Positions 2,170-19,948 of a stretch of 36,927 nucleotides of DNA are shown here, in pieces. Source of the DNA: Marinobacterium iners DSM 11526 (lineage in GTDB: Bacteria; Pseudomonadota; Gammaproteobacteria; Pseudomonadales; Balneatricaceae); assembly GCF_900107855.1 (NCBI RefSeq), contig NZ_FNRJ01000024.1, positions 1-36,927 on the forward strand, in the 5' to 3' direction. The translations under genes and the position numbers were made by a program. The notes below the pieces were generated by a model. That model was given only the letters and a program-made list of their open reading frames with translations. It was not told the DNA's origin and did no database searches. Each line of letters begins with the position of its first letter. The stretch's first letter is position 1.

Positions 2170-2198
2170 AATCTAATTAACATATTAACTTTTGTCAA
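2170..2198 (-). promoter_or_regulatory. hpaF-dctPQ promoter with candidate HpaR operator in the spacer
   Basis: On the minus strand TTGACA (2198-2193) and TAGATT (2175-2170) are separated by exactly 17 bp, a near-consensus sigma-70 promoter firing towards hpaF. The spacer contains the 12-bp palindrome TTAACATATTAA (2177-2188, plus-strand reading). Related palindromes recur at other hpa promoters in this window. A protein bound there would block RNA polymerase. HpaR is the obvious candidate but binding is inferred. Confidence 0.8.
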
Positions 2199-2362
2199 TA
2201 CGATGACAGTGACACCTGCACAGCTTTTGGGCGCGCCGTGCACAAGAATAGATCCGCCAAAAATCGGCCTGACATTGTCGCAGATAGCGTTATACCTGTG
2301 TGGACAAGTTGCCATGAGGTTCACTCTGTGCACCGCACAATGGCACGAATCAGCGCGAGGTA

Positions 2363-2390
2363 TTGACTTACTTAACATCTTAACTAAAAT
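2363..2390 (+). promoter_or_regulatory. hpaHIG1G2E promoter with candidate HpaR operator in the spacer
   Basis: TTGACT (2363-2368) and TAAAAT (2385-2390) are 16 bp apart and read towards hpaH. Between them lies TTAACATCTTAA (2372-2383), a variant of the palindrome found at the hpaF promoter. The predicted transcript would have a leader of about 70 nt. The 160 bp between the two divergent promoters hold no gene that I can see. Confidence 0.8.
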
Positions 2391-2467
2391 GAATTTCAGA
2401 TAACCTGTGCAGGAAAACATGGCACAGAGCGCGAACAAACCGGACAACAAGAAAGGTGCATCCGAGC

Positions 2468-3271
2468 ATGTTGAATAAAGAGCAGATCCAGGCCGCGGCC
2501 GATCGTCTGTATGAAGCCGAAGTCAACCGCAAGCAGATCCCGGCGCTCACACTGGACCACCCCGATATGAACATGGCTGACGCCTATGCCGTGCAGAAAG
2601 CCTGGGTTGATCGCAAGATCAGTGAAGGACGCAAGGTGATCGGTTACAAAATCGGCCTGACCTCTCGCGCCATGCAGATGTCCTCCAACATCGACGAGCC
2701 AGACTATGGCGTGTTGCTGGACGACATGTTGTTTGATGACGGCGCCACCATCAAGGCATCCGATTTCCTCGACCCGCGTATCGAAGTGGAACTCGCTTTT
2801 GTTCTGAACAAGCCGCTGTTCGGCGAGAACGTCACCATCTTTGATATTATCAACGCAACAGACTACGTCATCCCATCACTGGAACTGATTGCCGCTCGCT
2901 GCCTGCGTACCGACCCGGAAACCGGCTACACTCGAAAGGTGTATGACACCATTTCCGACAATGCAGCCAACGCCGGCATCGTCATGGGTGGACGCCCGAT
3001 CAAGCCGATGGACATCGATCTGCGCTGGGCCGGTTGCATGCTGTACCTGAATGGTCAGATCGAAGAAACCGGCCTTGCCGGCGGCGTACTGGGCAACCCG
3101 CTGAAAGGAATCACCTGGGTATGCAAGCGTTTTGCACCACACGGTATTGGCCTGGAGCCTGGTCAGGTGATTCTGTCCGGTTCCTTTACCCGTCCGGTAC
3201 CGGTCAAGGCCGGCGATACCGTTCACGCCGATTTCGGCTCTTTGGGCGGTGTGACACTGCACTTCGAATAA
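2468..3271 (+). CDS. hpaH: 2-oxo-hept-4-ene-1,7-dioate hydratase
   Basis: This 267-residue protein has the same length as Escherichia coli HpaH. It hydrates 2-oxo-hept-4-ene-1,7-dioate (OHED), giving the substrate of the HpaI aldolase. It belongs to the FAH-fold hydratase/decarboxylase family. The metal-binding Glu-x-Glu is seen in [13 protein letters not shown], and [12 protein letters not shown] and [13 protein letters not shown] are typical. The ATG at 2468 was chosen over an in-frame GTG at 2456 because AAGAAAGG at 2449-2456 is placed correctly for it and the N-terminus MLNKEQIQ then matches the family. It is first in the five-gene unit hpaH-I-G1-G2-E, with short gaps between all genes. 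Confidence 0.96.
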
Positions 3272-3296
3272 GCTTGTGCCGACAGGAGATCGCAGT

Positions 3297-4103
3297 ATGG
3301 AACTGCCGAAAAACCGCTTCAAGCAGGGTCTGGCCACCGGCGAAACCCAGTACGGCCTGTGGCTGGGTCTGCCGGACAACAGCGCGGCTGAAATCGCCGC
3401 CGTTGCCGGTTTCGACTGGCTGCTGATCGATGGTGAGCATGCACCTTTCGATCTGCGCACCATCATGAGCCACCTGCAGGCGATCGCACCTTATGACACC
3501 GCACCGATCGTGCGCTGCGTTGAAGGCGATACCGCTCTGATCAAGCAGCTGCTCGACATCGGCGTACAGACACTGCTGGTGCCGATGGTTGAAACCGCCG
3601 AGCAGGCGGCCCAGCTGGTACAAGCGGTACGATACCCGCCACAGGGCATTCGTGGCCTGGGCACTTCCCTGGCCCGCGCCGCACGCTGGAACCAGGTGCC
3701 GGGTTACCTGAAAAAGGCCAACGATGAAATCTGCCTGATCGTTCAGGTGGAGACCGCAAGCGCCATGCAGAACCTGGACGTCATTCTGGAAGTAGAAGGT
3801 GTCGACGGCGTATTCATCGGCCCGTCCGACCTGTCTGCCTCCATGGGCTATATCGGTGATGCCGGTAACCCGGTGGTGGTCGAGACCATCAACAAGGGCC
3901 TGAACAAGATTCGCGATGCCGGCAAGTACGCCGGTCTGCTCTGCCTGGACCCGTCCCTGGCAGAGACCTATGTCCAGCAGGGTGCCAACTTCGTGGGTGT
4001 CGGTGTCGACACCATGATTCTGGCCAACGAAACCCGCAAGCTGGCACAGCGCTTCAAACAGGGCGCTCCGGTTGAAGACGAAAAACCTCAGGCCGGCTAT
4101 TAA
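3297..4103 (+). CDS. hpaI: 4-hydroxy-2-oxo-heptane-1,7-dioate aldolase
   Basis: This 268-residue class II (metal-dependent) aldolase splits 4-hydroxy-2-oxo-heptanedioate into pyruvate and succinic semialdehyde, the last committed step of the pathway. LLIDGEHAPFDLRTI near the N-terminus, the metal Glu in VQVETASAMQNL, and the Asp in GVFIGPSDLSASMGY are the HpaI/GarL family signatures. The ATG at 3297 has AGGAG at 3284-3288. An in-frame GTG at 3276 is less likely. The gene follows hpaH by 25 nt and precedes hpaG1 by 29 nt, so it is part of one operon. The product succinic semialdehyde could be taken by the aldehyde dehydrogenase at 16159-17589. Confidence 0.96.
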   Translation: MELPKNRFKQGLATGETQYGLWLGLPDNSAAEIAAVAGFDWLLIDGEHAPFDLRTIMSHLQAIAPYDTAPIVRCVEGDTALIKQLLDIGVQTLLVPMVETAEQAAQLVQAVRYPPQGIRGLGTSLARAARWNQVPGYLKKANDEICLIVQVETASAMQNLDVILEVEGVDGVFIGPSDLSASMGYIGDAGNPVVVETINKGLNKIRDAGKYAGLLCLDPSLAETYVQQGANFVGVGVDTMILANETRKLAQRFKQGAPVEDEKPQAGY

Positions 4104-4132
4104 TTGCCGGTCATAACACGAGAAGGTTAATC

Positions 4133-4801
4133 ATGACTGCAAACACTCTGGTCAACAGCAAGCTGGTCTGTGTCGCCCTGAACGACAAGGCGCAGCTGGC
4201 TGCTCTGGACGCCACATTCAACGACGCTCCCTACAAAAAGCCGCCGACTCAACCGGTTCTGTATTACAAGCCGCGCAATACCTGGAGTGTTGACGGTGCT
4301 GAAGTCGAGTGGGCCAAGGACTTCGACGGCAACGACGTAGCCGAAATGGCCGTGGGCGCCAGCCTCGGCGTGGTGATCGGCAAGGAAACCTGCCGTGTCT
4401 CCGCTGAAGAAGCGCTGCAGTACGTTGGCGGCTATACCGTTGTGGCGGACTATTCACTGCCGGAACAGAGCTACTACCGCCCGGATATCAAGGGCAAGTG
4501 CCTGGACGCATCTGCACCTGTAGGTCCTGAAATCGTTGCCGCTGACAAGATCGCCAACCCGGACGCCCTGACGGTAACTGTCAGCGTTAACGGCGAGCAG
4601 AAAAGCAGCTTCGAGCTGGCCAACATGGAGCGCAGTGTTGCCGAGCTGATCAGCATCATTTCACGCATCATGACCCTGCAGGCAGGCGAAATCATCGCAG
4701 TCGGCTTCGCCGGTGATCGCGTTGCCGTTGCCAAGGGTGACAAGGTAGAAGCAAGCATCGAGGGTGTCGGCACCCTGAACAACACGCTGGGAGGTGCCTG
4801 A
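4133..4801 (+). CDS. hpaG1: HpaG N-terminal-half subunit (OPET decarboxylase/HHDD isomerase)
   Basis: This 222-residue protein aligns with the N-terminal half of bifunctional E. coli HpaG: VCVALNDKAQLAAL, PYKKPPTQPVLYYKPRNT and YRPDIKGKCLDASAPVGP all have close counterparts there. HpaG converts 5-oxo-pent-3-ene-1,2,5-tricarboxylate by decarboxylation and isomerisation. Here the two halves are separate genes, with hpaG2 starting 3 nt after this stop. Where the FAH fold normally has the metal-binding Glu-x-Glu, this subunit reads GASLGVVIGKE, so the site seems degenerate, as in the corresponding half of the fused enzyme. It may be a structural or partner subunit. Which half does which reaction is not settled by the sequence. 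Confidence 0.9.
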   Translation: MTANTLVNSKLVCVALNDKAQLAALDATFNDAPYKKPPTQPVLYYKPRNTWSVDGAEVEWAKDFDGNDVAEMAVGASLGVVIGKETCRVSAEEALQYVGGYTVVADYSLPEQSYYRPDIKGKCLDASAPVGPEIVAADKIANPDALTVTVSVNGEQKSSFELANMERSVAELISIISRIMTLQAGEIIAVGFAGDRVAVAKGDKVEASIEGVGTLNNTLGGA

Positions 4802-4804
4802 GCC

Positions 4805-5587
4805 ATGAGACACGCACGTATCGTATTTGACGGCCGCGAGCTGGACATCGACATTGACGCCAACGATCGCATCACCACATCAGAAGGTGAAGTGCTGAAC
4901 GTGGCGCTGGATTCTGACCAGATCACTTGGCTGCCGCCGGTAAAAGAACCGGGTACCATTTTCGCGCTGGGCATCAACTATGCCGATCACGCGACTGAAC
5001 TGGCGTTCGAGCCGCCGAAAGAGCCGCTGATTTTCATCAAGCATGCCAACACGCTGACCGGCCACAAGCAGGTGAGCTACCGTCCCGACGGCATCGAATA
5101 CCAGCACTACGAGTGCGAGCTGGTAGCGGTGATCGGCAAGAGCGGCAAGAATATCAAGCGTGAAGACGCACTGGACTACGTTGCCGGCTACACTGTCTGC
5201 AATGACTTCGCGATCCGCGACTATCTGGAAAACTACTACCGTCCGAACCTGCGCGTGAAGAGCCGCGATTCTCTGTTGCCGATGGGTCCCTGGATTGTAG
5301 ACACCGCTGATATCCCTGATGCCAACGCGCTGAAACTGACCACCACGGTCAACGGCAAGTTGACTCAGGACGGCTCCACCAAGGACATGATCTTTGATGT
5401 GCCCTTCGTGATCGAATACCTGAGCAAGGTCATGACCCTGAACCCGGGCGACATGATCTGCACCGGCACACCGCACGGTATCGTTGACTGCCAGCCGGGC
5501 GACACCATCGTCTGCAGCATCGAAAATGTCTGCTCCCTCGAGACCCGCATGGTCAGCGAGCAGAAATACTACGGCGACAAATACTAA
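4805..5587 (+). CDS. hpaG2: HpaG C-terminal-half subunit (OPET decarboxylase/HHDD isomerase)
   Basis: This 260-residue FAH-family protein matches the C-terminal half of E. coli HpaG almost continuously: FALGINYADHATEL, VAGYTVCNDFAIRDYL, ENYYRPNLRVKSRDSLLPMG and MTLNPGDMICTGTPHGI. The metal ligands are visible as Glu-x-Glu in HYECELVAVIGK and an Asp in CNDFAIRDY, so this is the metal-competent half. A short N-terminal domain of about 50 residues (starting MRHARIVFDGRELDID) is typical of separate FAH enzymes. It begins 3 nt after hpaG1, implying translational coupling and probably a complex of the two. hpaE follows 18 nt later. Confidence 0.93.
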   Translation: MRHARIVFDGRELDIDIDANDRITTSEGEVLNVALDSDQITWLPPVKEPGTIFALGINYADHATELAFEPPKEPLIFIKHANTLTGHKQVSYRPDGIEYQHYECELVAVIGKSGKNIKREDALDYVAGYTVCNDFAIRDYLENYYRPNLRVKSRDSLLPMGPWIVDTADIPDANALKLTTTVNGKLTQDGSTKDMIFDVPFVIEYLSKVMTLNPGDMICTGTPHGIVDCQPGDTIVCSIENVCSLETRMVSEQKYYGDKY

Positions 5588-5605
5588 GAGCTTCAGGAGA
5601 CTAGA

Positions 5606-7141
5606 ATGAGCGATACACTGGCAACCAATCTGGAACGCGCCCAAAAATACCTGGAGCGCTTCAAGAACAACACCACCGGCCACTACATCAACGGTGAATT
5701 CACCTTGGGTAACGGCGGCAAGGAATACGACAACTACACGCCGACCGACAACAGCTCCATCGGCAAGATCATGGCCGGCTCCGTCGCCGACATGGATGCC
5801 GCCTGTCAGGCCGCTGAAGACGCATTCGAAGCCTGGTCCAACACTCCTGGTGCCGAACGCAAGCGTTTGCTGAACAAGTTTGCCGACCGCCTGGTTGAGC
5901 GTGCTGACGAGATCGCTCTGGTTGAATCCATGGACTGCGGTCAGGCGATCCGCTTCATGAAGCAGGCTGCCATCCGTGGCGCGGCCAACTTCCGCTTCTT
6001 CGCTGACAAGGCTCCGGAAGCGCAGAACGGCCTGGCGCTGCATCAGGACGAGCACACCAACTACACCGTCCGTAAAGCGATCGGTCCGGTCGGTATCATC
6101 ACGCCGTGGAACACGCCGTTTATGCTGTCTACCTGGAAAATCGCACCTGCACTGGCTGCAGGCTGTACCGTGGTACACAAGCCGGCTGAACTGACCCCGC
6201 TGAGCGCCTACATCCTGGCTGAAATCGCCGATGAAGTTCTGCCCAAGGGCGTCTGGAACATGGTAAACGGCTTCGGTGAAGGCGTTGGCAAACGCATGAC
6301 CGAACACCCGGCCATCAAAGCCGTTGCCCTGGTTGGCGAATCTGCAACCGGTTCTCACATCATGCGCCAGGGTGCTGATACTCTGAAGCGTATGCACTTC
6401 GAACTGGGCGGCAAAAACCCGGTTATCGTATTTGACGATGCCGACTTCGAACGCGCCCTGGACGCTGTTGTGTTCATGATCTACAGCCTGAATGGCCAGC
6501 GTTGCACCTCCTCCAGCCGTCTGCTGATCCAGAGCGGTATCCGTGACAAGTTCATGGCAGCCTTGGAACAGCGTGTACGCAACTTGAAGGTTGGTCACTC
6601 TCTGGACCCGAGCACCGAAGTGGGTCCGCTGGTTGCGACCGAGCACTACAACAAGGTACTGAGCTACTTCGACATCGCCAAAGAAGACGGCGCCAATGTT
6701 GCAGTAGGCGGCAAGCGTATCGAAGAAGCCCGTGGCAACATCGACCCGGCCGGTAACTACCTGGAGCCGACTCTGTTCACCGGCGCCGACAACAAGATGC
6801 GCATCGCTCAGGAAGAGATCTTTGGTCCGGTTCTGACCGCTATCAGCTTCGATACCGAAGAGGAAGCAATCGCGATCGCCAACGACACCCAGTACGGTCT
6901 GTCCGGTTACATCTGGACCGAGAACACCGGCCGCGCCATGCGCATGGCCAAGCACGTTGAAGCCGGCATGCTGTGGGTGAACTCCGAAAACAACCGTAAC
7001 CTGCCGTCTCCGTTCGGTGGTATCAAGATGTCCGGCATCGGTCGCGACGGTGGCGACTGGAGCTTCGACTTCTACATGGAAACCAAGAACGTCTGCATCG
7101 CGCACGGTACTCATAAGGTACCGCAGCTCGGCAAAGGCTAA
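5606..7141 (+). CDS. hpaE: 5-carboxymethyl-2-hydroxymuconate semialdehyde dehydrogenase
   Basis: This 511-residue NAD-dependent aldehyde dehydrogenase oxidises the semialdehyde made by HpaD. The general-base Glu lies in FELGGKNP (about residue 266) and the catalytic Cys in [10 protein letters not shown] (about residue 300). [27 protein letters not shown] contains the NAD-binding segment. The C-terminal [20 protein letters not shown] and [11 protein letters not shown] are characteristic of HpaE. It is slightly longer than E. coli HpaE (488). A good AGGAG precedes the ATG. It is the last gene of the rightward unit and is followed by a hairpin candidate terminator at 7169. Confidence 0.96.
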
Positions 7142-7255: not shown

Positions 7256-7732
7256 TCAGTCTGAAGGCCGCTCCAACAACACACCACCCGTACCATCTTC
7301 GCCCAGATTGTCATCCGGATTTTTCAACGGGCAATCATCCAGCGACAGACAGCCGCAACCAATGCAGCCTTGGAGCTCATCCCGCAGCCGACGCAAGGTC
7401 TCAATACGCTGATCCAGCGTTTCACGCCAACGCGCAGATGCCTGTTTCCACTGTTCAAGGCTGATCTTGTCACCATATTCATAGCTGCCAAGCGTCTCCC
7501 TGATTTCATCCAGAGGGATACCCGCCCGCTGCGCCACCTTGACGATGGCCAGATAACGCAGCACGGTCGGTGTATAGCGGCGCTGATTGGCATTATTACG
7601 CAGGGAGATAATCAGCCCCTTGGATTCGTAGAAGTGAATCGCCGATACTGCCACGCCGCTACGCCTGGCTACCTCGCCGACACTCAGCTCTCGCTGTGGA
7701 CCCGATTCTTTAGCCAAAGCCCTGCTCCTCAT
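7256..7732 (-). CDS. soxR: Redox-sensing MerR-family regulator SoxR
   Basis: This 158-residue protein has a MerR winged-helix domain ([26 protein letters not shown]), a dimerising helix, and the SoxR [2Fe-2S] ligand motif [12 protein letters not shown] with Cys123, 126, 128 and 134. The C-terminal [12 protein letters not shown] also matches E. coli SoxR. A TTG five codons downstream (7717) is preceded by AGGAG and may be the true start, because the ATG has no ribosome site. SoxR activates promoters with a long 19-bp spacer when its cluster is oxidised. Exactly such a promoter lies before the RND pump (12120-12150). Pump control by SoxR is known from Pseudomonas mexGHI-opmD. Its lodging inside the hpa cluster suggests it senses redox-cycling catechol or quinone products. 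Confidence 0.95.
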
Positions 7733-7833
7733 TTATTGTCATAAGCCGCCAGCCAAGAGAGACAGCTCCCTCTGTATATGTCTGAGGGGGTGCCGTTAGC
7801 CGCAAAACGACATCCCTCAACTCTCAAGATAGC

Positions 7834-10800
7834 TCAGGCAGAGCGCTCCTCTTCGATGGCAAGCCCTGCTTCAATGTCCCGTTGTGAAGGCTCTGAATGA
7901 TTACGTGCAATAAGACTGTAGATGGTCGGCAGCACAAACAACGTAAACAAGGTGCCAATCAACATTCCTGTCACGACAACAATACCAATGGCAAAACGGC
8001 TGGCGGAGCCCGCACCACCGGCAAACAGCAAGGGGATCAACCCCGAGACCATGGCCGCTGTTGTCATCAGCACCGGGCGCATTCGGATAACCGCCGACTT
8101 ATGCATCGCTGCCATGGGTCCCAGTTTCTCGTTTCGCTGTATATCGTTGGCGAAGGAGACCATCAGGATCCCGTGCTTGGAGATCAAGCCGATTAGCGTA
8201 ACCAACCCGATCTGGGTGTATATATTCATGGTGGTATAGCCGAGCCAGATCGGCAGCAATGCGCCGCAGATTGCCAAGGGCACCGTCACCAGAATTACCA
8301 ACGGATCACGGAAGCTTTCGTATTGGGCAGCCAGCACCAAGAAGATTACGATCAGCGCAAAGCCAAAGGATATCACCAGCTGATTACCCTCCTGAACGAA
8401 CTGGCGGCTATCGGATAGCCAGTCAATGCTCGCACCGGCCGGCAGCGGCTGGCTTTTCAGGAAACCCACCGCTTGGCCCATGGTGATACCGGGCATCAGA
8501 ACTGCCGATAGGGTTACCGCGTTCATCTGGTCAAACTGGGGCAGCAGGTTCGGTGCTGCCTGGACCTCCACCTTCACCAGGTTTGCCAGCGGCAGCAGCT
8601 CTCCGGACTGTGAACGCACATAGTAGCCGGTCAGGTCCTGAGGACCCCGTCGCTTGTCCTGGGGCACCTGGGCAATAACATCATAGGAACGGTTGAACCA
8701 ATTGAAACGGTTGACGTAGTTTTCACCGACCAGCATTGCCAACGTACCGGCAATCTCAGACATGGATACACCCAGTTCACCAGCCTTGGCTGCATCGACG
8801 GTCAGGTGGGCCAAGGGACTGTCGAACGCCAGATCACTCTCCACATAAGCGAAGAGGCCGCTGCCCCAGGCCGCGCTCTTAATGTTTTCCAGCGTGCTAT
8901 AAAGCTCCGAAAATTCAGCCGGTGCACGCAGGACCATCTGTACAGGAAGACCGCCACTGCCGGCAGGTAGAGGTGCAGGCTGAAATGCAGTCACATAGGC
9001 TTCGGTAACCGATGAGCCTCGGGCATTCAAAGCGCCCTCCACCTCGGCTGCAGTCATCTGGCGCTCATCCCAGGGCTTGAGTACAACACCACCGAAGGCA
9101 TTATTTTGACCATTGCTGCCGTTTATGAAAAAACTGTTCTGGTAATCCGGTAACTGACGGAACAGGCCTTCGACCCCGCGGGATGCGCGCTCGGTGTAAT
9201 CCACATTGGCATATTGAGGGGCTTTCACGGCGGTGAATACATAGCCCTGATCTTCACCCGGTGCCAGCTCACGCTTAACGCCCATGAACAGAAAAACTAT
9301 CCCCGCCAGCACGACGATGCTGACCAGCAGTACCGCCGCACGAGCATGCAAAACAGAATCCAGCAAGCGACCATAGGCATTGGCCAACCCGGTCATGGCC
9401 CGATCAATCGATTGTGCCAGGCGTCCTTCTGAAATCGAATTGTTCAATAGCGCACTGCTCATCATCGGCGACAGCGTCAACGCCACAACGCCCGATACAA
9501 TGACCGCACAAGCCAAGGTAAAGGCAAATTCCTTGAACAGAGCCCCCGTCAGCCCCCCCATCAGGCCAATTGGCGCGTACACCGCAGCCAGCGTGATAGT
9601 CATGCCGATGACCGGCCAGACAATCTCACGAGCCCCCAATATCGCGGCCTTAACCGGCGTCAGCCCTTCTTCAATGTGGCGGTGGATGTTTTCCACCACG
9701 ACGATGGCATCATCGACCACCAGTCCTATGGCCAGCACCATGGCCAGCAGCGTCAGCAGGTTCAGCGAGAAGCCGAACATCAACATCAACGCCGCAGTCC
9801 CGACCAGTGACAAGGGAATGGTGACAATCGGGATAATCACCGAGCGGAAGGAACCAAGGAACAGGAAGATCACGACGATAACGATTACCACCGCCTCAAG
9901 CAGGGTTTTGATCACTTCGTCAATTGAAGCATTAACAAAGCGCGCAATATCGAAGACGTTAACGATTTCCATCCCCGGCGGCGCAGCCTTGCGCAGCTCG
10001 GGCAAAAGCGTTTCGATACCGGCAACAATTTCCAACGGGTTGCCATCGGGGGTCGGCGTGATTGCCAGGGATACCATCCGGCTACCGCCACCGAAGAAGC
10101 TGGCGTTATAGCTCTGCCCTCCCAACTCGGCGGTGGCCACATCGCTAAGACGCACCAGGCTGTTATCAGCACGCTTGATCACCAGGTTGCGGAAGTCTTC
10201 GATACTGCGCACTTCCGTAGAGGCCTGAATAGGAATCAGGGTGTCCTTGCCCCGCAGGGCACCCGGCGCCGCCTGCACATTGTTGTTCCGCAAGGCGTTG
10301 TACAAGTCCCCGGCCGTCAACCGATATGCCGCCAGCTTGACCGGATCAACCCAGAGCCGCATGGCGTAGGTCTGGCCTCCATTCACATCAGCACCCGCCA
10401 CCCCCGGCACCGAGGTGATCAGCGGCTGCACCACTCGGGAGATGTAATCGGTGATCTCCGGAATGGTCTGTCTATCGTTGGCGAACGTCAGATATTGTAC
10501 CGCCGAAACACCATCCGTAATCTTCTGGATCTGGGGATCGAACACACCTTCCGGCAGGCGATATTTCACCTGTTGCACCTTGGCCAGCACCTCCGTCATG
10601 GCCCGGTCTGCGTCGGCATTCAGAACCAGTTTGGCGCGGATCTCACTGCGCCCCATCGTTGAAGTCGATGTCAGGTATTCAATACCGTTGGCGCTGGCGA
10701 TTGCCTGGGAAATAGGCGTAGTGACAAACCCCTGCATGACCTCTTGCGATGCCCCTGGATACTGGGTGGTCACCACAATGGTGGCGCTTTCCATCTGTGG

Positions 10801-12083: not shown

Positions 12084-12119
12084 CAGCTGTTTATCCTGAG
12101 CGTCCCATGAAAAAAACCA

Positions 12120-12150
12120 ACTTTAAAACCTCAAGTAAGCTTGAGGTCAA
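12120..12150 (-). promoter_or_regulatory. SoxR-activated promoter of the RND pump operon
   Basis: On the minus strand TTGACC (12150-12145) and TAAAGT (12125-12120) are separated by 19 bp instead of 17. The spacer region carries CCTCAAGTAAGCTTGAGG (12129-12146), which differs from the E. coli SoxR box CCTCAAGTTAACTTGAGG only in its centre. The overlong spacer and this palindrome are the hallmark of SoxR-regulated promoters. The soxR gene lies at the far end of the same unit. The site also lies 135 bp upstream of hpaA. Confidence 0.92.
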
Positions 12151-12264
12151 GAACGCTTTACACTTCTTTTTCGCTATAGAAAAAGGGAGACGATGTGGTC
12201 ACTCTAACCAACCCGAACAGATGACTCTGGAGCGACATCATCCCCCCAGTCGAAGACCGGCATC

Positions 12265-12273
12265 TGTTATAAT
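12265..12273 (+). promoter_or_regulatory. Extended -10 promoter of hpaA, possibly leaderless
   Basis: TG (12265-12266), one base, then TATAAT (12268-12273) forms a perfect extended -10 element with no clear -35 box. The ATG of hpaA is only 7 nt further on, where transcription would be expected to begin, and there is no Shine-Dalgarno sequence. The hpaA message may therefore be leaderless. The start codon is supported by alignment length with E. coli HpaA. Confidence 0.6.
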
Positions 12274-12280
12274 CGGGCGT

Positions 12281-13193: not shown

Positions 13194-13222
13194 TGGACTG
13201 TTAGTTAATACATTAATAAAAT
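13194..13222 (+). promoter_or_regulatory. Promoter with candidate HpaR operator before the unknown permease
   Basis: TGGACT (13194-13199) and TAAAAT (13217-13222) are 17 bp apart. The spacer holds TTAATACATTAA (13205-13216), another member of the palindrome family. The ATG of the next gene is only 7 nt past the -10 box, and no ribosome site is seen, so a leaderless transcript is possible. The -35 box is weak. The permease and hpaR would be transcribed from here, making HpaR autoregulated. Confidence 0.65.
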
Positions 13223-13228: not shown

Positions 13229-14554
13229 ATGCAACAGAACCCAACAGCCGGTGAACGCTCCGGAGTCGCCATAGACACCCTTTCAGGCCTGCTGATCTTT
13301 GCCACTTTGGTCATGGCATTGATCGACACTTTCGACCTGGCCGTGCTAGCCCTGCCGGCAACACTCACGGCCTGGGCCTTTGTGCTGCTCGAATACCTGC
13401 GCCTGAACCGCAAGCAACGCATTCAGATCAGCGTACTCTGTGCCATTGGAGCGGCCTTTACCGGCTGGGCGTGGAGCCAGGGCTCTGATGCACAATTGAT
13501 TGACTTGCTGGGCGAGCACCTCAAACTTGCGATGCTGCTGGCGGCCGTGAACTTCATCCGCCTCAGTACACAACTGGCACCGGCCACCGACTCACCCGGT
13601 CCGCGAAGCTTTCTGCTCACGCTCGGCGGGATGCACCTGTTTTCGTCCGTGGCCAACTTTTCATCCATGCTGCTGGTGGGCGAGCAGATCAAGCGCAAAG
13701 GAACTCTTAGCCCGTTATCACAGATCATTCTGGCACGCGGCTTCAGCCTTGCGATCATGTGGTCACCCTTTTTGAGCATACTTCCGCTGGTGCTTGAGCA
13801 GGTGCCCGGTGCCGAACTCTACAGTATCTATCCGTTCTCGGCCGCACTGGCAGTGATCGGCCTGTTGCTCACTTTTCTGGACGTGCGCCATCGACATAAC
13901 GACGAATATCACCACTATTCAGGATTCCCCATGACACTGGGCACCCTGTTGCTCCCGCTGTGCCTGATCAGTACAATTCTGCTCGCTGCATGGATTTGGC
14001 CACAGTTGCCAACCGTGGGTGCTGTGTCATTGCTGGCGATACTGACACCACTGATGATGCTGACGCTACGCCGCGGCCCGTTACAGGCGACATCCCGGGT
14101 GATTAAGCATATCACCCAACGCCTGGCGGACACTCGCGCCGAAATATCACTCTTTCTAAGTGCAGGCTTTCTTGCGGCCGGGGTCAAGGCATGCATTGCT
14201 GTCGGGCTGATCGATCTGCCATTCACCCACACCGATGCGACGGTGGCATCGATAGTGATGATCTCGATCGTGGTGCTTGCCTACCTGGGCATTCACCAGT
14301 TCGCGCTGGTGGCGATCTGCGCCGGTCTGCTGGCTGATGTCACCACGGCCCCGACACTGATGGCGATCGCCTATATAGTGGCCACATCGGTTTCCATGTC
14401 CGGCAGCACCTTCAGCGGGGTAAACTTTATTCTTCAGGCGCGCTTTGCCTGCCCGGCGCGCAGCTTGCTGAGAAACAACCTGAACTATTCAGTGATGATG
14501 CTGGTCGCGGCCAGCCTGCTGATGTACTTAATGCAGTATATGGGGGTCAGGTGA
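13229..14554 (+). CDS. Polytopic membrane permease of unknown family
   Basis: This 441-residue protein is mostly hydrophobic, with about ten to twelve membrane segments. I do not recognise a named family. Two similar-looking stretches, SSVANFSSMLLVGEQIKRKG near residue 145 and SVSMSGSTFSGVNFILQARF near 395, are rich in Ser, Asn and Gly between helices. They recall the re-entrant loops of the ion-transporter superfamily (DASS, ArsB, TRAP large subunits), which would suggest a two-repeat permease. It lies between hpaA and hpaR, has its own palindrome-bearing promoter, and its stop overlaps a GTG before hpaR (GTGA). Uptake of 4-HPA or a related acid is a reasonable inference, but it could serve another role. 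Confidence 0.75.
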   Translation: MQQNPTAGERSGVAIDTLSGLLIFATLVMALIDTFDLAVLALPATLTAWAFVLLEYLRLNRKQRIQISVLCAIGAAFTGWAWSQGSDAQLIDLLGEHLKLAMLLAAVNFIRLSTQLAPATDSPGPRSFLLTLGGMHLFSSVANFSSMLLVGEQIKRKGTLSPLSQIILARGFSLAIMWSPFLSILPLVLEQVPGAELYSIYPFSAALAVIGLLLTFLDVRHRHNDEYHHYSGFPMTLGTLLLPLCLISTILLAAWIWPQLPTVGAVSLLAILTPLMMLTLRRGPLQATSRVIKHITQRLADTRAEISLFLSAGFLAAGVKACIAVGLIDLPFTHTDATVASIVMISIVVLAYLGIHQFALVAICAGLLADVTTAPTLMAIAYIVATSVSMSGSTFSGVNFILQARFACPARSLLRNNLNYSVMMLVAASLLMYLMQYMGVR

Positions 14555-14595
14555 CCATCCTGCAGCCGATACGAACAACAGGTAATGAGATACTG

Positions 14596-15018
14596 ATGCG
14601 CAAATACGAAGACTCCGTCCCCCTGAAACTGCTGAAGGCGCGTGAAGTGACCATGAGCTTCTTCCGCCCTGTGCTGCAGGAGATTCCGCTTACCGAACAG
14701 CAGTGGCGCGTGATTCGTGCCCTGGATGAACACGGTGAACTTGAGTCCAAACAACTGGCGGACCTGTGCTGCATACTCAGCCCCAGCCTTACCGGCATCA
14801 TCAGCCGGCTGGAGCAGCAGGATTACATTCAGCGCCGCCGCTCGCCGGAAGATCAGCGCCGCGTGCTGATCAGCCTGACCGACAAGGCCAAACAGATGTT
14901 CGACAGCATCAGTCCCTCACTGGAAGCTTGCTACAAGCAGATCACCGAGCAGTTCTCCAAAGAGAACATGGAGCAGCTGGACAAGCTGCTGAATCAGCTC
15001 TGCCAGATTAAACCCTGA
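14596..15018 (+). CDS. hpaR: MarR-family repressor of the hpa operon
   Basis: This 140-residue winged-helix protein matches E. coli HpaR: LKAREVTMSFFRPVLQEIPLTEQQWRVIRAL, CILSPSLTGIISRLEQQDYI and DQRRVLISLT all have close equivalents. HpaR represses the meta-cleavage genes and is released by pathway aromatics. The ATG at 14596 gives the family length. A GTG at 14551 overlapping the preceding stop is an alternative that adds 15 residues and would give tight coupling to the permease. As a MarR dimer it should bind short palindromes, and TTAAyATnTTAA sites lie at the promoters of hpaF, hpaH, the permease, hpaD1 and MFS2. Confidence 0.93.
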   Translation: MRKYEDSVPLKLLKAREVTMSFFRPVLQEIPLTEQQWRVIRALDEHGELESKQLADLCCILSPSLTGIISRLEQQDYIQRRRSPEDQRRVLISLTDKAKQMFDSISPSLEACYKQITEQFSKENMEQLDKLLNQLCQIKP

Positions 15019-15069: not shown

Positions 15070-15113
15070 TTGACTTTAGATAATATGTTAACTAGCATTA
15101 CTTAACATGTTAA
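15070..15113 (+). promoter_or_regulatory. hpaD1 promoter with two candidate HpaR operators
   Basis: TTGACT (15070-15075) and TAGCAT (15093-15098) are 17 bp apart. One operator, ATAATATGTTAA (15080-15091), fills the spacer. A second, TTAACATGTTAA (15102-15113, a perfect palindrome), covers the expected transcription start. The two centres are 22 bp apart, about two helical turns, so two dimers could bind the same face of the DNA. This is the only promoter in the window with a doubled site. Confidence 0.8.
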
Positions 15114-15186: not shown

Positions 15187-15214
15187 ATGTCCCACAATAA
15201 AGAAGGTGTTAACC

Positions 15215-16066
15215 ATGGGCGAAATCGTATTAGCTGCAAAAGTGACTCACGTACCGACCATGCTGCTGTCAGAGCAGCCGGGCAAACTTCAGGGCTGTCG
15301 CCAGCAGGCAATCGACGGTCACCGTGAGATCATGCGCCGTGCGCGTGAAATGGGTGCCGACACGGTTGTGGTGCTGGATACCCACTGGCTGATCAACGCC
15401 GGTTATCACATCAACAGCAACCCGGTATTCAAGGGCAAGTTCACCAGCCACGAGTTCCCGCACTTCATCCAGAACCTGGAGTATGAGTACAAGGGTAACC
15501 CGGCGCTGGGCGATGCGATTGCGGCCAAGGCCACCGAAAAAGGTGTTTTCACCCTCTCCCACCAGGTTGAAACGCTGGACCTTGAGTACGGCACACTGGT
15601 GCCCATGCACTTCATGGAGCCCGGTGATATGCCGATCGTATCTGTTGCGGCCTTCTGTACCGTTCACAACTTGCAGGACTCTCGCAAGCTGGGTGAGGCG
15701 ATCGCCGAAGCGGTCAAGGAAAGCGACTGCAAGGTCCTGCTGCTGGCTTCCGGCTCCCTGTCACACAAGATCTGGGAAAACGAGCTCTATGAAGCGAACA
15801 ATGGCACCTTCACCATTTCACGCGAATTCAACCGTCAGGTCGATCTGCGCGTGCTGGAGCTGTGGCAGAACGGGGAAATCGATACCTTCCTGAAAATGCT
15901 GCCCGAGTATGCCCAGCACTGCTCAGGTGAAGGCGGCATGCACGATACTGCCATGCTGTTCGGTGCCCTCGGCTGGGACAAGTACACCGGCAAGGGCGAG
16001 TTGATCGGCGAGTACTTCCCAAGCTCCGGTACCGGCCAGGCCAACGTTATTTTCCCGGTACAGTAA
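15215..16066 (+). CDS. hpaD: 3,4-dihydroxyphenylacetate 2,3-dioxygenase, copy 1
   Basis: This 283-residue protein is a LigB-type (type III) extradiol dioxygenase of exactly the length of E. coli HpaD. It opens the ring of homoprotocatechuate with O2 using Fe(II) or Mn(II). Metal ligands are expected at His12 (KVTHVP) and His57 (LDTHW), with a Glu in SGEGGMHDTAM. EYGTLVPMHFM, LLASGSLSHKIW and SSGTGQANVIFPV are family signatures. It is the more diverged of the two copies: the N-terminus reads MGEIVLAAKVTHVPTM against MGKLALAAKITHVPSM in copy 2 and E. coli. The ATG has AGAAGG upstream. Tight control is suggested by the doubled operator. The two copies may differ in substrate range or metal. Confidence 0.93.
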   Translation: MGEIVLAAKVTHVPTMLLSEQPGKLQGCRQQAIDGHREIMRRAREMGADTVVVLDTHWLINAGYHINSNPVFKGKFTSHEFPHFIQNLEYEYKGNPALGDAIAAKATEKGVFTLSHQVETLDLEYGTLVPMHFMEPGDMPIVSVAAFCTVHNLQDSRKLGEAIAEAVKESDCKVLLLASGSLSHKIWENELYEANNGTFTISREFNRQVDLRVLELWQNGEIDTFLKMLPEYAQHCSGEGGMHDTAMLFGALGWDKYTGKGELIGEYFPSSGTGQANVIFPVQ

Positions 16067-16075
16067 GTTACACAT

Positions 16076-16101
16076 CCGCCGGGGTTTCACCTCCCCGGCG
16101 G
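16076..16101. terminator. Strong intercistronic hairpin after hpaD1
   Basis: A perfect 9-bp GC stem CCGCCGGGG (16076-16084) / CCCCGGCGG (16093-16101) with an 8-nt loop begins 9 nt after the hpaD1 stop. No T run follows, so it is not a standard intrinsic terminator. It may stabilise the hpaD1 message or reduce read-through into the aldehyde dehydrogenase gene. Confidence 0.5.
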
Positions 16102-16158
16102 TCGATTCAGCCAGTTCTCACTCATAACCCAACACTATAAGCAGGCGGAGACACATCC

Positions 16159-17589
16159 ATGCTGCAGACATCCTACCCCTACTACCTGGCCAACGAAGCC
16201 CTTGCTCCGAACCAGGACCTGGTAGTTTATGACAAATTCTCCGGCGAAGCGGCCACCCGTGTCGCCATGGCTGATGCGGCTGCCATCGACAAGGCTATCG
16301 CAGCGGCTGACGCTGCCACCGAGCCGATGCGCAAGCTGCCGGCTTACAAGCGTCAGGCCATCCTGAACCACTGCGTGAAGCGTTTTGAAGAGCGTGCCGA
16401 AGAGCTGGCCGTAGCCCTCTGCATCGAAGCTGGCAAGCCGATCAAGGACGCCCGCGGTGAAGTCACCCGCCTGATCGATACCTTCCGCATTGCCGCTGAA
16501 GAAGCCGTTCGCATCGGCGGTGAAGTGGTACCGATGGATATCAGCCCCCGTGCTGAAGGTTACACCGGCATGTGGAAGCGCGTCCCTATCGGTGCCTGCT
16601 CTTTCATTTCACCGTTCAACTTCCCGCTGAACCTGGCGGCTCACAAGGTAGCTCCGGCGATCGCAGCGGGCTGTCCGTTCATCCTGAAGCCGGCCAGCCT
16701 GACGCCGATCGGCGCGATCATCATCGGTGAAGTACTGGCCGAAACCGATCTGCCCAAGGGCGCATTCTCCATTCTGCCCTGCCACCGCGACGGTGCCGAC
16801 CTATTCACCACCGACGACCGCCTGAAACTGCTCAGCTTTACCGGTTCTCCGGACGTGGGCTGGCAGCTGAAGGCCAAGGCCGGCAAAAAGCCGGTAGTAC
16901 TGGAGCTGGGCGGCAATGCGGCCTGCATCGTTGACGAAGGCACTGATCTTGACGATGCCGTTGCCCGTATCGTTTTCGGCGCCTACTACCAGTCTGGCCA
17001 GAGCTGCATCAGCGTTCAGCGCATCATGGTGCACGAAGCACACTACGATGAAGTCCGCGAGAAGCTGTCCAAGGCCGTTAATGCCTTGGTTCACGGCGAT
17101 CCGAAAGACGAGAACACCTTCATCGGACCGATGATCTCCGAGAAGGAAGCCACCCGTCTGCATAACTGGGTACTGGAAGCGAAGGAAGCCGGTGCCGCCA
17201 TTCTGGCTGGCGGTGAGCGCGAAGGTGCCATGCTGCAGGCAACCCTGCTTGAAAACGTGGATGCGGATCAGAACGTCAACACCCAAGAAGCCTTCGGCCC
17301 GGTGGCAATCCTGTCCAAATTCACCGACTTCGATGCCGCGCTGAAAGAGGTCAACAACTCTGACTTCGGTCTGCAGGCTGGCATTTTCACCCGCGACATC
17401 TACAAGATCCAGAAAGCCTGGGACGAGCTGGAAGTCGGCGGCGTGGTGATCGGTGACGTACCGTCCTGGCGTGTGGATCACATGCCGTACGGCGGCGTGA
17501 AGGACAGCGGCTTGGGTCGTGAAGGCGTTCGCTATGCGATCGAGGACATGACCGAGCTGCGCCTGCTGGTAATCCGCGATCCCAAGTAA
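16159..17589 (+). CDS. NAD(P)-dependent aldehyde dehydrogenase, candidate succinic semialdehyde dehydrogenase
   Basis: This 476-residue aldehyde dehydrogenase has the catalytic Cys at about residue 283 (SGQSCISVQR) and the general base Glu at about 249 (LELGGNAA). GACSFISPFNFPLNLAAHKVAP and PYGGVKDSGLGREGVRYAIEDMTE are also typical. It belongs to the lactaldehyde/glycolaldehyde/phosphonoacetaldehyde-type branch rather than HpaE. GGAG lies 9 nt before the ATG. It sits between the two hpaD copies. The HpaI aldolase releases succinic semialdehyde, for which no other dehydrogenase is present in the window, so oxidation to succinate is the natural inferred role. Phenylacetaldehyde-type substrates cannot be excluded. 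Confidence 0.88.
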   Translation: MLQTSYPYYLANEALAPNQDLVVYDKFSGEAATRVAMADAAAIDKAIAAADAATEPMRKLPAYKRQAILNHCVKRFEERAEELAVALCIEAGKPIKDARGEVTRLIDTFRIAAEEAVRIGGEVVPMDISPRAEGYTGMWKRVPIGACSFISPFNFPLNLAAHKVAPAIAAGCPFILKPASLTPIGAIIIGEVLAETDLPKGAFSILPCHRDGADLFTTDDRLKLLSFTGSPDVGWQLKAKAGKKPVVLELGGNAACIVDEGTDLDDAVARIVFGAYYQSGQSCISVQRIMVHEAHYDEVREKLSKAVNALVHGDPKDENTFIGPMISEKEATRLHNWVLEAKEAGAAILAGGEREGAMLQATLLENVDADQNVNTQEAFGPVAILSKFTDFDAALKEVNNSDFGLQAGIFTRDIYKIQKAWDELEVGGVVIGDVPSWRVDHMPYGGVKDSGLGREGVRYAIEDMTELRLLVIRDPK

Positions 17590-17596
17590 GTGCTGT

Positions 17597-17624
17597 CCGG
17601 TGCAGTCCTGCAAGACTGCACCGG
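17597..17624. terminator. Perfect 11-bp hairpin between aldehyde dehydrogenase and MFS1
   Basis: CCGGTGCAGTC (17597-17607), loop CTGCAA, and GACTGCACCGG (17614-17624) form an uninterrupted stem starting 8 nt after the stop. There is no T run. The MFS gene starts just beyond (17647), so this is likely an attenuating or mRNA-stabilising element rather than a full terminator. Confidence 0.5.
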
Positions 17625-17646
17625 CTGCCTGACCGGCCGAGATATC

Positions 17647-18834
17647 GTGAAACCGAATCCACCTGTTGCCCTGCTGACACTGATCGCCATGGCCAGCCCA
17701 CTGGCCCTGAATGCATTCGTGCCGGCAATGCCGGATGCAGCCGCTGCGCTGGATGCGGATATCGCCACCATTCAGCTGACCTTTACCTGTTACCTGTTGA
17801 CACTGGCCATTGGCCAGTTGATCACCGGACCGCTGGCGGACTATTTCGGCCGTCGTCCGGTACTGCTGGCAGGTCTGGGTCTACACACGCTGGGCAGCCT
17901 GTTGGCTGCTTCAGCAGATGGAGTCGAGATGCTGATAGCAGGGCGTGTCCTGCAGGCGTTGGGTGGCAGTACATGCATGGCGCTGGCACGCACCATCATT
18001 TTGGATGTGCATGGCCGTGAGGGGGCAGCCGGGCGCATGGGCTACGTGGTCATGGCCATTGCCATTGCGCAGGCCATTGCGCCCACCATCGGGGGCTTCC
18101 TGAACCTTTGGACGGGATGGAACTCAATATTCTATATGTCCGTGTTCATGGGCGCCCTGGTATGGCTGGTCGCACTGCGCATGTTGCCGGAAACCAGTCG
18201 CGCCCGCAGTGACAGCCTGCACCTCGGAGGCATCCTGAAACGGTATGGTGAGGTACTGGGATCAGGCCAGTATCTGGGCTACGTGTTATCCACCACGGCC
18301 ATCGCAGCGGCATTCTACCTCTTCGTTGGCAGCAGCCCCTATATCGTGACAGACCAGCTGGGCGGCAACTCGGCCGTGTTTGGCAGCTGGTTTTTGACGG
18401 TGTCGCTGGCCTTCATGGCGGGCAGTTTTCTGTCAACACGGCTGGCTAAGCTGTTCAGCGTTGACCAGATGGTCCTGTGCGGCAACTTGCTGTCGCTGTT
18501 GGGTGCGGCATTGCTGCTGGGCCTTTCACTGCTAAACGCGCTTAGCCTGGCAGGGCTGTTCCTGCCCATGGCCCTGGTTATTTTTGGCCGCGGCTTGAGC
18601 CAGCCGAATGCCCAGTCGGCCGCCATCAGCAGCAGTGACAGTTCGGCCGGAACCGCATCAGGACTGATGGGATTCATCCAGCTGTTGACAGGTGCCGTCA
18701 TCGCCCAGCTTGTCCCCATGCTGCTGGATTATGGCACTACACTGGTATTCTGCTGCATTCTGGCAGCACCCGTGGTTGCATTGCTGGCACATTACAATGC
18801 CTGGCGCAGGCGACACGACAACGCTGCCCAATAA
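17647..18834 (+). CDS. MFS transporter of the Bcr/CflA type, copy 1
   Basis: This 395-residue, 12-helix major facilitator matches the Bcr/CflA drug:proton antiporter group. The N-terminal helix leads into LNAFVPAMPDAAAALDAD, and the loop 2-3 motif GPLADYFGRRPVLL is present. I chose a GTG start at 17647. It gives a normal N-terminus, and the longer in-frame start at 17590 would translate the hairpin. A weak GAGA is the only ribosome-site candidate. Its place between hpaD copies, and the second Bcr/CflA gene after hpaD2, point to a role in exporting or importing pathway aromatics. Function is inferred. Confidence 0.85.
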   Translation: MKPNPPVALLTLIAMASPLALNAFVPAMPDAAAALDADIATIQLTFTCYLLTLAIGQLITGPLADYFGRRPVLLAGLGLHTLGSLLAASADGVEMLIAGRVLQALGGSTCMALARTIILDVHGREGAAGRMGYVVMAIAIAQAIAPTIGGFLNLWTGWNSIFYMSVFMGALVWLVALRMLPETSRARSDSLHLGGILKRYGEVLGSGQYLGYVLSTTAIAAAFYLFVGSSPYIVTDQLGGNSAVFGSWFLTVSLAFMAGSFLSTRLAKLFSVDQMVLCGNLLSLLGAALLLGLSLLNALSLAGLFLPMALVIFGRGLSQPNAQSAAISSSDSSAGTASGLMGFIQLLTGAVIAQLVPMLLDYGTTLVFCCILAAPVVALLAHYNAWRRRHDNAAQ

Positions 18835-18934
18835 TGCGCAGGGACGCCCACAAGACTATATCGGTCAATGACCCAAGACTATGCTGACCGGATTACGGCC
18901 CGCCGTTCCGGTGATAACAAAAGAGGAAAATTCG

Positions 18935-19861
18935 ATGGGTAAACTCGCATTAGCTGCAAAAATCACCCATGTACCGTCCATGTATCTGTCTGAACTGGAC
19001 GGTCCGCAGAAAGGCTTCCGTCAGGCGGCCATCGACGGACACCATGAAATCAGCCGCCGCTGCCGCGAGCTGGGCGTTGACACCATCATCGTGTTCGATA
19101 CCCACTGGCTGGTAAACGCAAACTACCACATCAACTGTGCTGCGCATTGGGCCGGCAACTACACCAGCAACGAGCTGCCGCATTTCATCTCCAACATGGA
19201 GTTTGAATACGATGGCAACCCGGAGCTGGGCCGCCTGCTGGCAGAGGAATGTAACGCTCAGGGTGTCGAAACCCTGGCCCATGATTCCACCAGCCTCGAC
19301 CCGGAGTACGGCACCCTGGTACCGATGCGCTACATGAACCAAGATCGCCATTTCAAGGTGATCTCGGTATCTGCCATGTGCACCGTGCACTACCTGAATG
19401 ACAGTGCGCGTCTGGGCTGGGCCATGCGCAAGGCAATTGAAGAAAAGTACGACGGTACCGTTGCCATTCTGGCGTCCGGCTCCCTGTCGCACCGTTTCGC
19501 TCAGAACGGTCAGGCACCGGATTTTGCCACCAAAACCTGGTCACCGTTCCTTGAGCGGCTGGATCATCAGGTGGTGGAAATGTGGCAGAACGGCGAATGG
19601 GAAGACTTCTGCGAAATGCTGCCCGAGTATGCCGTGAAAGGCCATGGTGAAGGTTTCATGCATGACACCGCCATGCTGCTTGGTGCCCTGGGCTGGTCTG
19701 AATACGACCAGAAAGTGGAAGTGCTGACCCCCTACTTCGGCAGCTCTGGTACCGGCCAGATCAACGCAGTTTTCCCGGTGTCTCCCGTTACTGGTGAGAA
19801 GGTTCCGGGGCCTCAGGCGTCCGTCACCAAATCCTTTGCGCCGGGTTCAAGCCGCATCTGA
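18935..19861 (+). CDS. hpaD: 3,4-dihydroxyphenylacetate 2,3-dioxygenase, copy 2
   Basis: This 308-residue LigB-type extradiol dioxygenase is the closer match to E. coli HpaD. It shares the N-terminus MGKLALAAKITHVPSMYLSEL, FDTHWLVNANYHINC, EYGTLVPMRYMN and LASGSLSHRF. Metal ligands are expected at His12 and His57, with a Glu in GHGEGFMHDTAM. It carries about 25 extra C-terminal residues after FPVSP (ending SFAPGSSRI) that the 283-residue enzymes lack. The ATG has AAGAGGAAAA upstream. No HpaR-type palindrome precedes it; it is probably read through from hpaD1 or MFS1. It is followed by an intrinsic terminator. Confidence 0.94.
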   Translation: MGKLALAAKITHVPSMYLSELDGPQKGFRQAAIDGHHEISRRCRELGVDTIIVFDTHWLVNANYHINCAAHWAGNYTSNELPHFISNMEFEYDGNPELGRLLAEECNAQGVETLAHDSTSLDPEYGTLVPMRYMNQDRHFKVISVSAMCTVHYLNDSARLGWAMRKAIEEKYDGTVAILASGSLSHRFAQNGQAPDFATKTWSPFLERLDHQVVEMWQNGEWEDFCEMLPEYAVKGHGEGFMHDTAMLLGALGWSEYDQKVEVLTPYFGSSGTGQINAVFPVSPVTGEKVPGPQASVTKSFAPGSSRI

Positions 19862-19881
19862 TACCCGATGACAACGACTCC

Positions 19882-19910
19882 AACGGCCTGCACCTGCAGG
19901 CCGTTTTCGT
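19882..19910 (+). terminator. Intrinsic terminator after hpaD2
   Basis: Stem AACGGCCTGC (19882-19891) / GCAGGCCGTT (19896-19905) with loop ACCT is followed by TTCGTTT. It begins 20 nt after the hpaD2 stop and is the best-formed terminator in the hpa region. It separates hpaD2 from the MFS2 unit. Confidence 0.75.
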
Positions 19911-19936
19911 TTGGGCACTGAGCGCACAACTCTTTG

Positions 19937-19948
19937 TTAATATATTAA
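19937..19948. promoter_or_regulatory. Candidate HpaR operator before MFS2
   Basis: TTAATATATTAA is a perfect 12-bp palindrome of the same family as the sites at the hpaF, hpaH, permease and hpaD1 promoters. It lies 64 bp before MFS2. I see no convincing -35/-10 pair around it; GATTAT at 19952-19957 is a weak -10 candidate. Confidence 0.65.

Follow-up and report, generated by a model that had tools for sequence, protein, structure and literature searches.

Which regulator acts through the short palindrome that recurs in the hpa promoters of Marinobacterium iners DSM 11526, and how many genes does it hold together? The stretch of DNA analysed here, hereafter the window, comprises 36,927 nucleotides of contig NZ_FNRJ01000024.1 (assembly GCF_900107855.1, contig C31 of 50, in a genome of 3.92 Mb). 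It carries meta-pathway genes of 4-hydroxyphenylacetate (4-HPA) catabolism together with hpaR, which encodes a MarR-family repressor. An earlier description of this DNA (the original prediction) reported six copies of the pattern TTAAyATnTTAA, tied five promoters into a single regulon and proposed HpaR as the binder. Our analyses point, with a probability of about 0.92, to the palindrome being the operator of the HpaR encoded at 14551-15018, which would repress by binding to core promoters and would also act on an unlinked monooxygenase gene.

The palindrome and its match to the published HpaR operator

A pattern search of the window found all six palindromes at the coordinates originally given, although only four of them are exact copies of TTAAyATnTTAA. 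These lie in the hpaF promoter (TTAACATATTAA, 2177-2188), in the hpaH promoter (TTAACATCTTAA, 2372-2383), at the proximal hpaD1 operator over the likely start site (TTAACATGTTAA, 15102-15113) and upstream of MFS2, a transporter gene (TTAATATATTAA, 19937-19948). The two others depart from the pattern at one position each: the site upstream of permease-hpaR, which would serve autoregulation (TTAATACATTAA, 13205-13216), and the distal hpaD1 operator, placed within the promoter spacer (ATAATATGTTAA, 15080-15091). The symmetric form of the pattern is TTAAYATRTTAA.

These sites stand well above chance. Exact matches averaged 0.00 across 100 dinucleotide shuffles of the window; at up to two mismatches there were 20 strand-hits for 6.75 expected, the additional ones all lying beyond the hpa cluster, at 32.4 kb or further. 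The whole genome holds seven exact places, four of them on this 36.9 kb contig (binomial P ~3e-7), and at up to one mismatch TTAAYATRTTAA has 17 places genome-wide, six of them in the window (binomial P ~8e-9). The reversed pattern, taken as a control at the same one-mismatch looseness, yielded 14 places genome-wide, so one-mismatch matches outside the cluster are mostly background. The outcome that the original prediction had named as contrary to it, a motif scattered over many unrelated promoters, did not emerge from this genome search with its seven exact places. The hydroxylase genes (21467-23701) had been described as free of the site, and they remain so even when two mismatches are allowed.

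The palindrome corresponds to an operator that is already in the literature. In Yersinia pseudotuberculosis, the HpaR footprint contains TTAA-N4-TTAA, a motif called ‘similar to E. coli W’ in an excerpt of PMC7180172. In the genome of E. coli BL21(DE3), the hpaG start is preceded at 32 bp by TTAATATGTTAA, and ATAAAATATTAA, a partner with one mismatch, lies 100 bp from it. The HpaR of the window, for its part, scores over the curated cut-off of its family (TIGR02337) and its gene sits among meta-pathway genes, with those for HpaH, I, G1, G2, E, D1 and D2 all within 37 kb. Among named HpaR proteins, the closest to it (at least 80% identity) belong to five Marinobacterium species and one Marinospirillum. 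The closest solved structures are 2fbi and 7el2/7el3, the latter named HpaR and presumably that of Acinetobacter baumannii; 7el2 aligns with residues 19-154 of the window protein at E = 1e-37. Overall identity to E. coli HpaR is 40%, yet the segment CILSPSLTGIISRLE is nearly identical to CILRPSLTGILTRME in the E. coli protein, and this common segment, CILxPSLTGIxxRxE, is the one that we take, from the MarR fold, to be the putative recognition helix. Because the Yersinia footprint, the E. coli hpaG site, the HpaR family model and the helix all match, the palindrome is, as far as sequence can tell, the published HpaR operator, both operator and repressor having been known before. The choice of HpaR as the binder is supported to the same extent. 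The literature matches listed for HpaR with Marinobacterium or with regulogs contained nothing useful.

Conservation and placement of the operators

Eight Marinobacterium genomes, one of them of the same species, were compared, and HpaR is present in all eight. The five promoter positions are occupied in 8, 8, 8, 8 and 7 of these genomes. The hpaF site is an exact TTAAYATRTTAA in every one. The hpaH site is in all eight a CATC/GATG variant, which reads TTAACATCTTAA in this species and its reverse complement, TTAAGATGTTAA, in the others. Upstream of permease-hpaR, or of hpaR alone where the permease is missing, six genomes have an exact TTAAYATRTTAA and the two of this species a copy with one mismatch. 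Downstream of hpaR there is always a pair formed by an exact TTAAYATRTTAA and a one-mismatch partner 22 bp off. The gene that follows this pair is hpaD1 in six genomes and directly the aldehyde dehydrogenase in M. halophilum and M. marinum; these two have no hpaD1 there, which rules out a pair at hpaD1 in all species. The MFS2 site is an exact TTAAYATRTTAA in seven genomes and is absent from M. halophilum.

The original prediction placed a copy in the spacer between the -35 and -10 boxes at hpaF, hpaH, the permease and hpaD1, and such boxes can indeed be read at all four promoters. They are TTGACA-N17-TAGATT for hpaF(-dctP-dctQ) (2170-2198, minus strand) and, on the plus strand, TTGACT-N16-TAAAAT for hpaH (2363-2390), TGGACT-N17-TAAAAT for permease-hpaR (13194-13222) and TTGACT-N17-TAGCAT for hpaD1 (15070-15098). 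Since a promoter scan of the window detected promoter-like sites no more often than in shuffles (10 for 10.4 expected), support for the boxes comes from conservation: they are kept in four further Marinobacterium records and, in comparisons of up to five genomes per promoter, the outer flanks drift and the boxes around the sites are retained. These are candidates for the promoters in use. The hpaD1 pair is also as it had been described, with its two copies 22 bp apart and the second one over the likely start site. At MFS2, the site does not fall in a spacer; it lies over the -35 region of what may be an extended -10 promoter (TGGTAATAT at 19964-19972), and all four genomes shown keep this extended -10 as TGGTAA(T/G)AT. 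In the intergenic region that they share, the hpaF and hpaH sites lie face to face, 195 bp apart; the corresponding spacing is 112, 123, 105 and 112 bp in four other loci (L131-L134) and 92 bp in two more (L063, L066).

Such an AT-rich sequence might be nothing more than promoter DNA. The core of the palindrome holds -10-like TAAYAT hexamers on both strands, one of which is probably used by the monooxygenase promoter treated below. However, no copy is expected in shuffles of the window and only seven places exist genome-wide, the 12 bp remain palindromic while the centre bases change among C/T and A/G, and at four promoters the site occupies the spacer, outside the boxes. A mere promoter sequence devoid of operator function therefore seems to us barely credible, and we retain the operator reading.

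An unlinked monooxygenase gene with the same operator

Three of the seven exact places in the genome lie off the cluster, and one of them is conserved. This site, C35:6666, starts 31 bp upstream of the coding sequence for a luciferase-like monooxygenase of the MsnO8 family (TIGR03558, 308.8 bits for a cut-off of 166.95; best PDB match 4us5). Among the Marinobacterium orthologues, 8 of 8 have the exact operator, beginning at -31 or -32; a paralogue of ~50% identity in the same genus has it in 0 of 7 cases. A search of the family (116 genomes) returned 50 genomes with a monooxygenase match at E <= 1e-90, and the loci with the 30 best matches were read. They comprise 26 orthologues (72-100% identity), 25 of which have the exact operator beginning at -30 to -36, and four matches at 52-55% identity that have none, so that the paralogues read in total carry the operator in 0 of 11 cases. 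Each of the 25 genomes whose monooxygenase gene has the operator also carries an HpaR over cut-off. The remaining orthologue, without operator, is that of G394, in which HpaR was not found, a single case and a weak negative because the assembly is a 93% complete draft in 180 contigs.

Conservation at this promoter is concentrated on the operator. Over the 25 sequences the majority base amounts to 96% in the operator columns, to 59% in the 30 bases before and 60% in the 16 after it, and to 39% in bases 60 to 31 before it; within the operator, ten of twelve positions never change, and the remaining two alternate only between C and T and between A and G. A TTGANN element lies 17 bases ahead of TAAYAT (TTGANN-N17-TAAYAT), which indicates that at this gene the operator contains the -10 hexamer. 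The neighbours of the gene vary among six genomes and include a LeuE-type exporter, a glutathione-dependent oxidoreductase, a TetR-type regulator, a two-component pair with a TonB receptor, an RhlE helicase and a trimethylamine monooxygenase. The operator has therefore stayed with the monooxygenase gene while its surroundings changed. The single regulon of five promoters originally proposed is supported and appears incomplete, as this unlinked gene would belong to it too.

In our literature search, no paper was found that names HpaR together with ‘luciferase-like monooxygenase’. We tentatively propose that HpaR directly controls this MsnO8-type enzyme and that the latter has an unrecognised job in the arylacetate catabolism of this bacterial family, a proposal to which we would give somewhat less than even odds. 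The enzyme might, for example, use reduced flavin to act on a substrate or by-product related to 4-hydroxyphenylacetate.

Other off-cluster places were compared in four Marinobacterium genomes, using 39 stretches around matches with up to one mismatch and their open reading frames (ORFs) at E <= 1e-10. The luciferase-like gene recurs at such places in all four. An aldehyde dehydrogenase adjoining topB recurs in three genomes, but its cores change (TTAACAGATTAA, TTAACAGGTTAA, TGAATATATTAA) and its membership is unproven. Weaker likenesses exist between L181 and L194 (49% over 194 residues) and between short ORFs in the pairs L178/L200 and L185/L186, and another involves an aldehyde dehydrogenase of L168 (~34%). 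In the own genome, we claim neither C11:5031, inside a LysR-type ORF (L083:4430-5359), nor C28:22669 (L084:8670), in an AT-rich gap between a Rieske-type gene, which it precedes, and GntR, MarR and dctP genes, as regulon members; both are probably background. None of the ORFs around C28:22669 matched ORFs around sites in three relatives.

The operator and HpaR across the order and the family

We extended the survey to 293 genomes from the order. HpaR is over cut-off in 34 of them and HpaH in 26, 24 of which also carry HpaR. The surroundings of hpaR or hpaH, up to 20 kb per stretch, were taken from these 24 genomes, from nine with HpaR only and from G257, whose HpaH falls just under the cut-off, the window itself being used for the own genome. 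The form counted was TTAANATNTTAA. The 24 genomes with both proteins have 47 sites in 600,856 bp (including slight overlaps between stretches), for a mean of 0.65 and a maximum of 2 in 20 shuffles and for 2 matches of the reversed pattern; 19 of the 24 have at least one site, and G257 has one. By contrast, hpa stretches from genomes without HpaR (two) or from extra copies apart from hpaR (two) have a site in 0 of 4 cases. In 24 further genomes of the family, an exact TTAAYATRTTAA occurs within ~1.5 kb around hpaR in 15.

Several observations weigh against HpaR as the protein that reads these sites. The fetched stretches of five of the 24 genomes (G127, G099, G276, G279 and G280) have no exact site, and neither do those of any of the nine genomes with HpaR but without HpaH over cut-off, four of which carry an HpaR 61-63% identical to that of the window. 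The HpaR-free controls are small (four stretches of 7.6-20 kb), and shuffles also expect ~0 sites there. Nine of the 24 further family genomes have no exact TTAAYATRTTAA within ~1.5 kb of hpaR, so that an operator at hpaR itself is common but not universal; when seven of these nine were read over 20 kb, six showed an exact site further off, by an aldehyde dehydrogenase, and G310 showed none. Outside the eight genomes compared above, M. lacunae (L135) has a single site, ahead of hpaR, the 1.1 kb after the gene being free of sites, and Marinospirillum (L136) has no site before permease-hpaR, its sites being located before hpaH and near MFS2/hpaF. Finally, the genomes are related and the counts are not independent.

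One could accordingly imagine that HpaA or another MarR-type protein binds the palindrome and that HpaR has a different operator. The nine site-less HpaR-only genomes and the nine family genomes with no site close to hpaR would agree with this, as would seven other MarR-type proteins of the own genome that match the HpaR model at E <= 0.001, and the MarR gene near C28:22669. Nevertheless, the same palindrome occurs in published HpaR footprints, all eight Marinobacterium genomes have a site ahead of hpaR or of permease-hpaR, and the sole monooxygenase orthologue that lacks the site belongs to the sole genome among them without HpaR. We consider another regulator improbable and keep HpaR as the most likely binder.

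As a separate observation, four genomes of one other family (L051-L054, f8) encode an HpaR 61-63% identical to that of the window but no HpaH over cut-off, and the wing of this HpaR reads EDHRR in place of EDQRR; no TTAANATNTTAA occurs in the 20 kb fetched for each.

Paired operators

Pairs of operators such as that at hpaD1 are found repeatedly. Partners were sought at 13-45 bp from exact sites, with up to two mismatches and with single-base, not dinucleotide, shuffles of the flanks as the null. The first set, 25 sequences holding 56 exact sites, gave 10 partners, every one of them 20-24 bp away (null mean 1.2, maximum 5). They include the pair downstream of hpaR in Marinobacterium (22 bp) and those at the corresponding promoter in another genus (24 bp), at an hpaH promoter (23 bp) and at hpaG promoters (20 bp). 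A second set, which comprises 33 exact sites at 23 loci and is not fully independent because two of the loci are from Marinobacterium, gave partners at 21-24, 28, 30 and 32 bp (nine rows, one 24-bp pair being counted twice; null 1.2, maximum 5). A strict spacing of 22 bp was dropped in view of the distances of 28, 30 and 32 bp. Two dimers about two helical turns apart are hence a recurrent, not a universal, arrangement, and we infer that the two operators of a pair may be occupied jointly or cooperatively.

It might also be that HpaR binds all these sites and that pairs or upstream placements serve activation or looping instead of plain occlusion. The recurrence of 20-24 bp pairs and the face-to-face hpaF and hpaH sites at 195 bp would suit such a function. 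In Yersinia, HpaR also activates a type VI secretion promoter from -241, through an imperfect site unlike the operator (excerpt of PMC7180172), which sets it apart from the system described here. All sites of the window, however, fall within candidate core promoters, where repression is the simple outcome, and the hpaF-hpaH distance varies among species. Activation or looping thus appears unlikely to us, although less so than the involvement of another regulator, and we favour occlusion of the promoters by HpaR.

Gene content of the hpa cluster

The window begins with the TRAP transporter genes dctQ (16-531) and dctP (535-1575; PF04290 and PF03480 for the two, minus strand), followed on the same strand by hpaF (1701-2090), which codes for 5-carboxymethyl-2-hydroxymuconate isomerase (PF02962, 151.6 bits). 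The meta-pathway genes hpaH-hpaI-hpaG1-hpaG2-hpaE (2456-7141, plus strand, as are the genes below from hpaA to the hydroxylase) are each over their NCBIfam cut-off. The gene of the AraC-family regulator HpaA (12077-13186; TIGR02297, 335.9 bits, cut-off 274.65) has no operator of its own, no site being found there at up to two mismatches. Between hpaE and hpaA, at 7256-12083, this strain carries soxR and an RND efflux pair. None of the hpa loci fetched from the seven other Marinobacterium genomes, one of which is conspecific, contains a match to these genes; the segment looks like a strain-level insertion of ~5 kb.

The ‘permease’ gene (13229-14554) codes for a helical membrane protein of 441 amino acids that belongs to no known family, without match in Pfam, NCBIfam or PDB sequences. 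It is present in six of nine genomes searched, in one of them at 29% only, and in G238 it is divergent from hpaH with an HpaR operator between the two genes. We regard it as a candidate arylacetate permease of an undescribed family; a structure prediction from five sequences was unusable (mean predicted local distance difference test score, pLDDT, 41.7). The following gene, hpaR (14551-15018), encodes the MarR-family repressor of 155 amino acids (TIGR02337, 174.1 bits, cut-off 121.2).

The genes hpaD1-aldehyde dehydrogenase-MFS1-hpaD2 (15215-19861) likely form one operon. The HpaD_Fe model (TIGR02298) is exceeded twice, at 15215-16066 and 18881-19861, and between these dioxygenase copies lie the aldehyde dehydrogenase, over no cut-off among the 25 families listed, and a Bcr/CflA-type MFS transporter, over its cut-off. 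The first copy, hpaD1, is missing in M. halophilum, in M. marinum and in two g25 loci (L063 and L066). Its longest ORF begins at 15107, within the proximal operator, and the family model starts only at residue 35; the true start is likely near 15215, and automatic annotation could place the proximal operator inside the hpaD1 gene. Further on come MFS2, a Bcr/CflA-family transporter gene (20013-21197; TIGR00710 and NF008314 over cut-off), and the oxygenase and reductase genes of p-hydroxyphenylacetate 3-hydroxylase (21467-23701; NF045920 and NF045919 over cut-off), which have no operator. Towards the end of the window, G+C drops to 0.36 at 33001-36000, whereas the contig's first 30 kb show ~0.56; this segment, perhaps foreign DNA, holds an acyl-CoA dehydrogenase-like gene and the gene of a LysR regulator.

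Discussion

This work shows directly that the sites exist, where they lie, how they are conserved and that they are linked to HpaR. By analogy with published orthologues, from which HpaR binding, repression and release by a ligand are carried over, an HpaR dimer would occupy the spacer at hpaF, hpaH, permease-hpaR and the distal hpaD1 site, and would cover the start site at the proximal hpaD1 operator and the -35 region at MFS2. Bound HpaR would exclude RNA polymerase and so keep uptake, ring cleavage, the lower meta pathway and HpaR itself switched off, until an aromatic compound of the pathway freed the promoters from it. The hydroxylase, without operator, would presumably be left to HpaA, as in the split described for E. 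coli W. HpaR would also control the unlinked monooxygenase gene, presumably through the operator that contains its -10 hexamer.

This scheme can be set beside the known systems. In E. coli W, HpaR represses the hpaGEDFHI meta operon and hpaR (excerpt of PMC7180172, after Galan et al. 2003), and the hydroxylase is left to HpaA (also PMC7180172). The Marinobacterium protein shares with that of E. coli the curated family, the recognition-helix segment and the operator. Unlike E. coli, with its one divergent hpaG/hpaR region, M. iners has six sites at five promoters and, beyond the E. coli set, TRAP and MFS transporters, two hpaD copies and the unlinked monooxygenase gene. In Y. pseudotuberculosis, the meta operon that HpaR represses likewise has TTAA-N4-TTAA sites, two of them footprinted at hpaG1 and one of these centred at -8 over the -10 box; it differs in that hpaBC lies inside the HpaR-controlled operon and that no hpaA homologue is identified, according to the excerpt of PMC7180172. 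For A. baumannii, which has a two-component 4-HPA hydroxylase as here, an excerpt of PMC12718150 reports that pathway intermediates release HpaR (citing FEBS J 2022) and that HpaR sites lie upstream of hpaA and of the meta operon, whereas here hpaA is devoid of a site.

The related genus g119 provides an observation on the end of the pathway. A succinate-semialdehyde dehydrogenase gene (L275:10442-11953, TIGR01780 over cut-off) is located near hpaR, with TTAACATGTTAA just upstream of it (11982-11993); a similar site is found by an aldehyde dehydrogenase match in L276-L280 and in L281 there is none. In this genus, the last pathway step may thus be under HpaR. According to an excerpt of PMC12718150, coordination of the succinate-semialdehyde dehydrogenase step with the 4-HPA genes is ambiguous in other bacteria.

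One short operator is common to HpaR from E. coli and Yersinia to Marinobacterium, and HpaR regulons can therefore be read from sequence with few stray matches. To the known operator and repressor, our comparison seems to add a wider regulon, most notably the unlinked monooxygenase gene. The operator found in 25 of 26 orthologues would offer a physiological handle on a monooxygenase family that, among the literature matches listed, had not been tied to HpaR.

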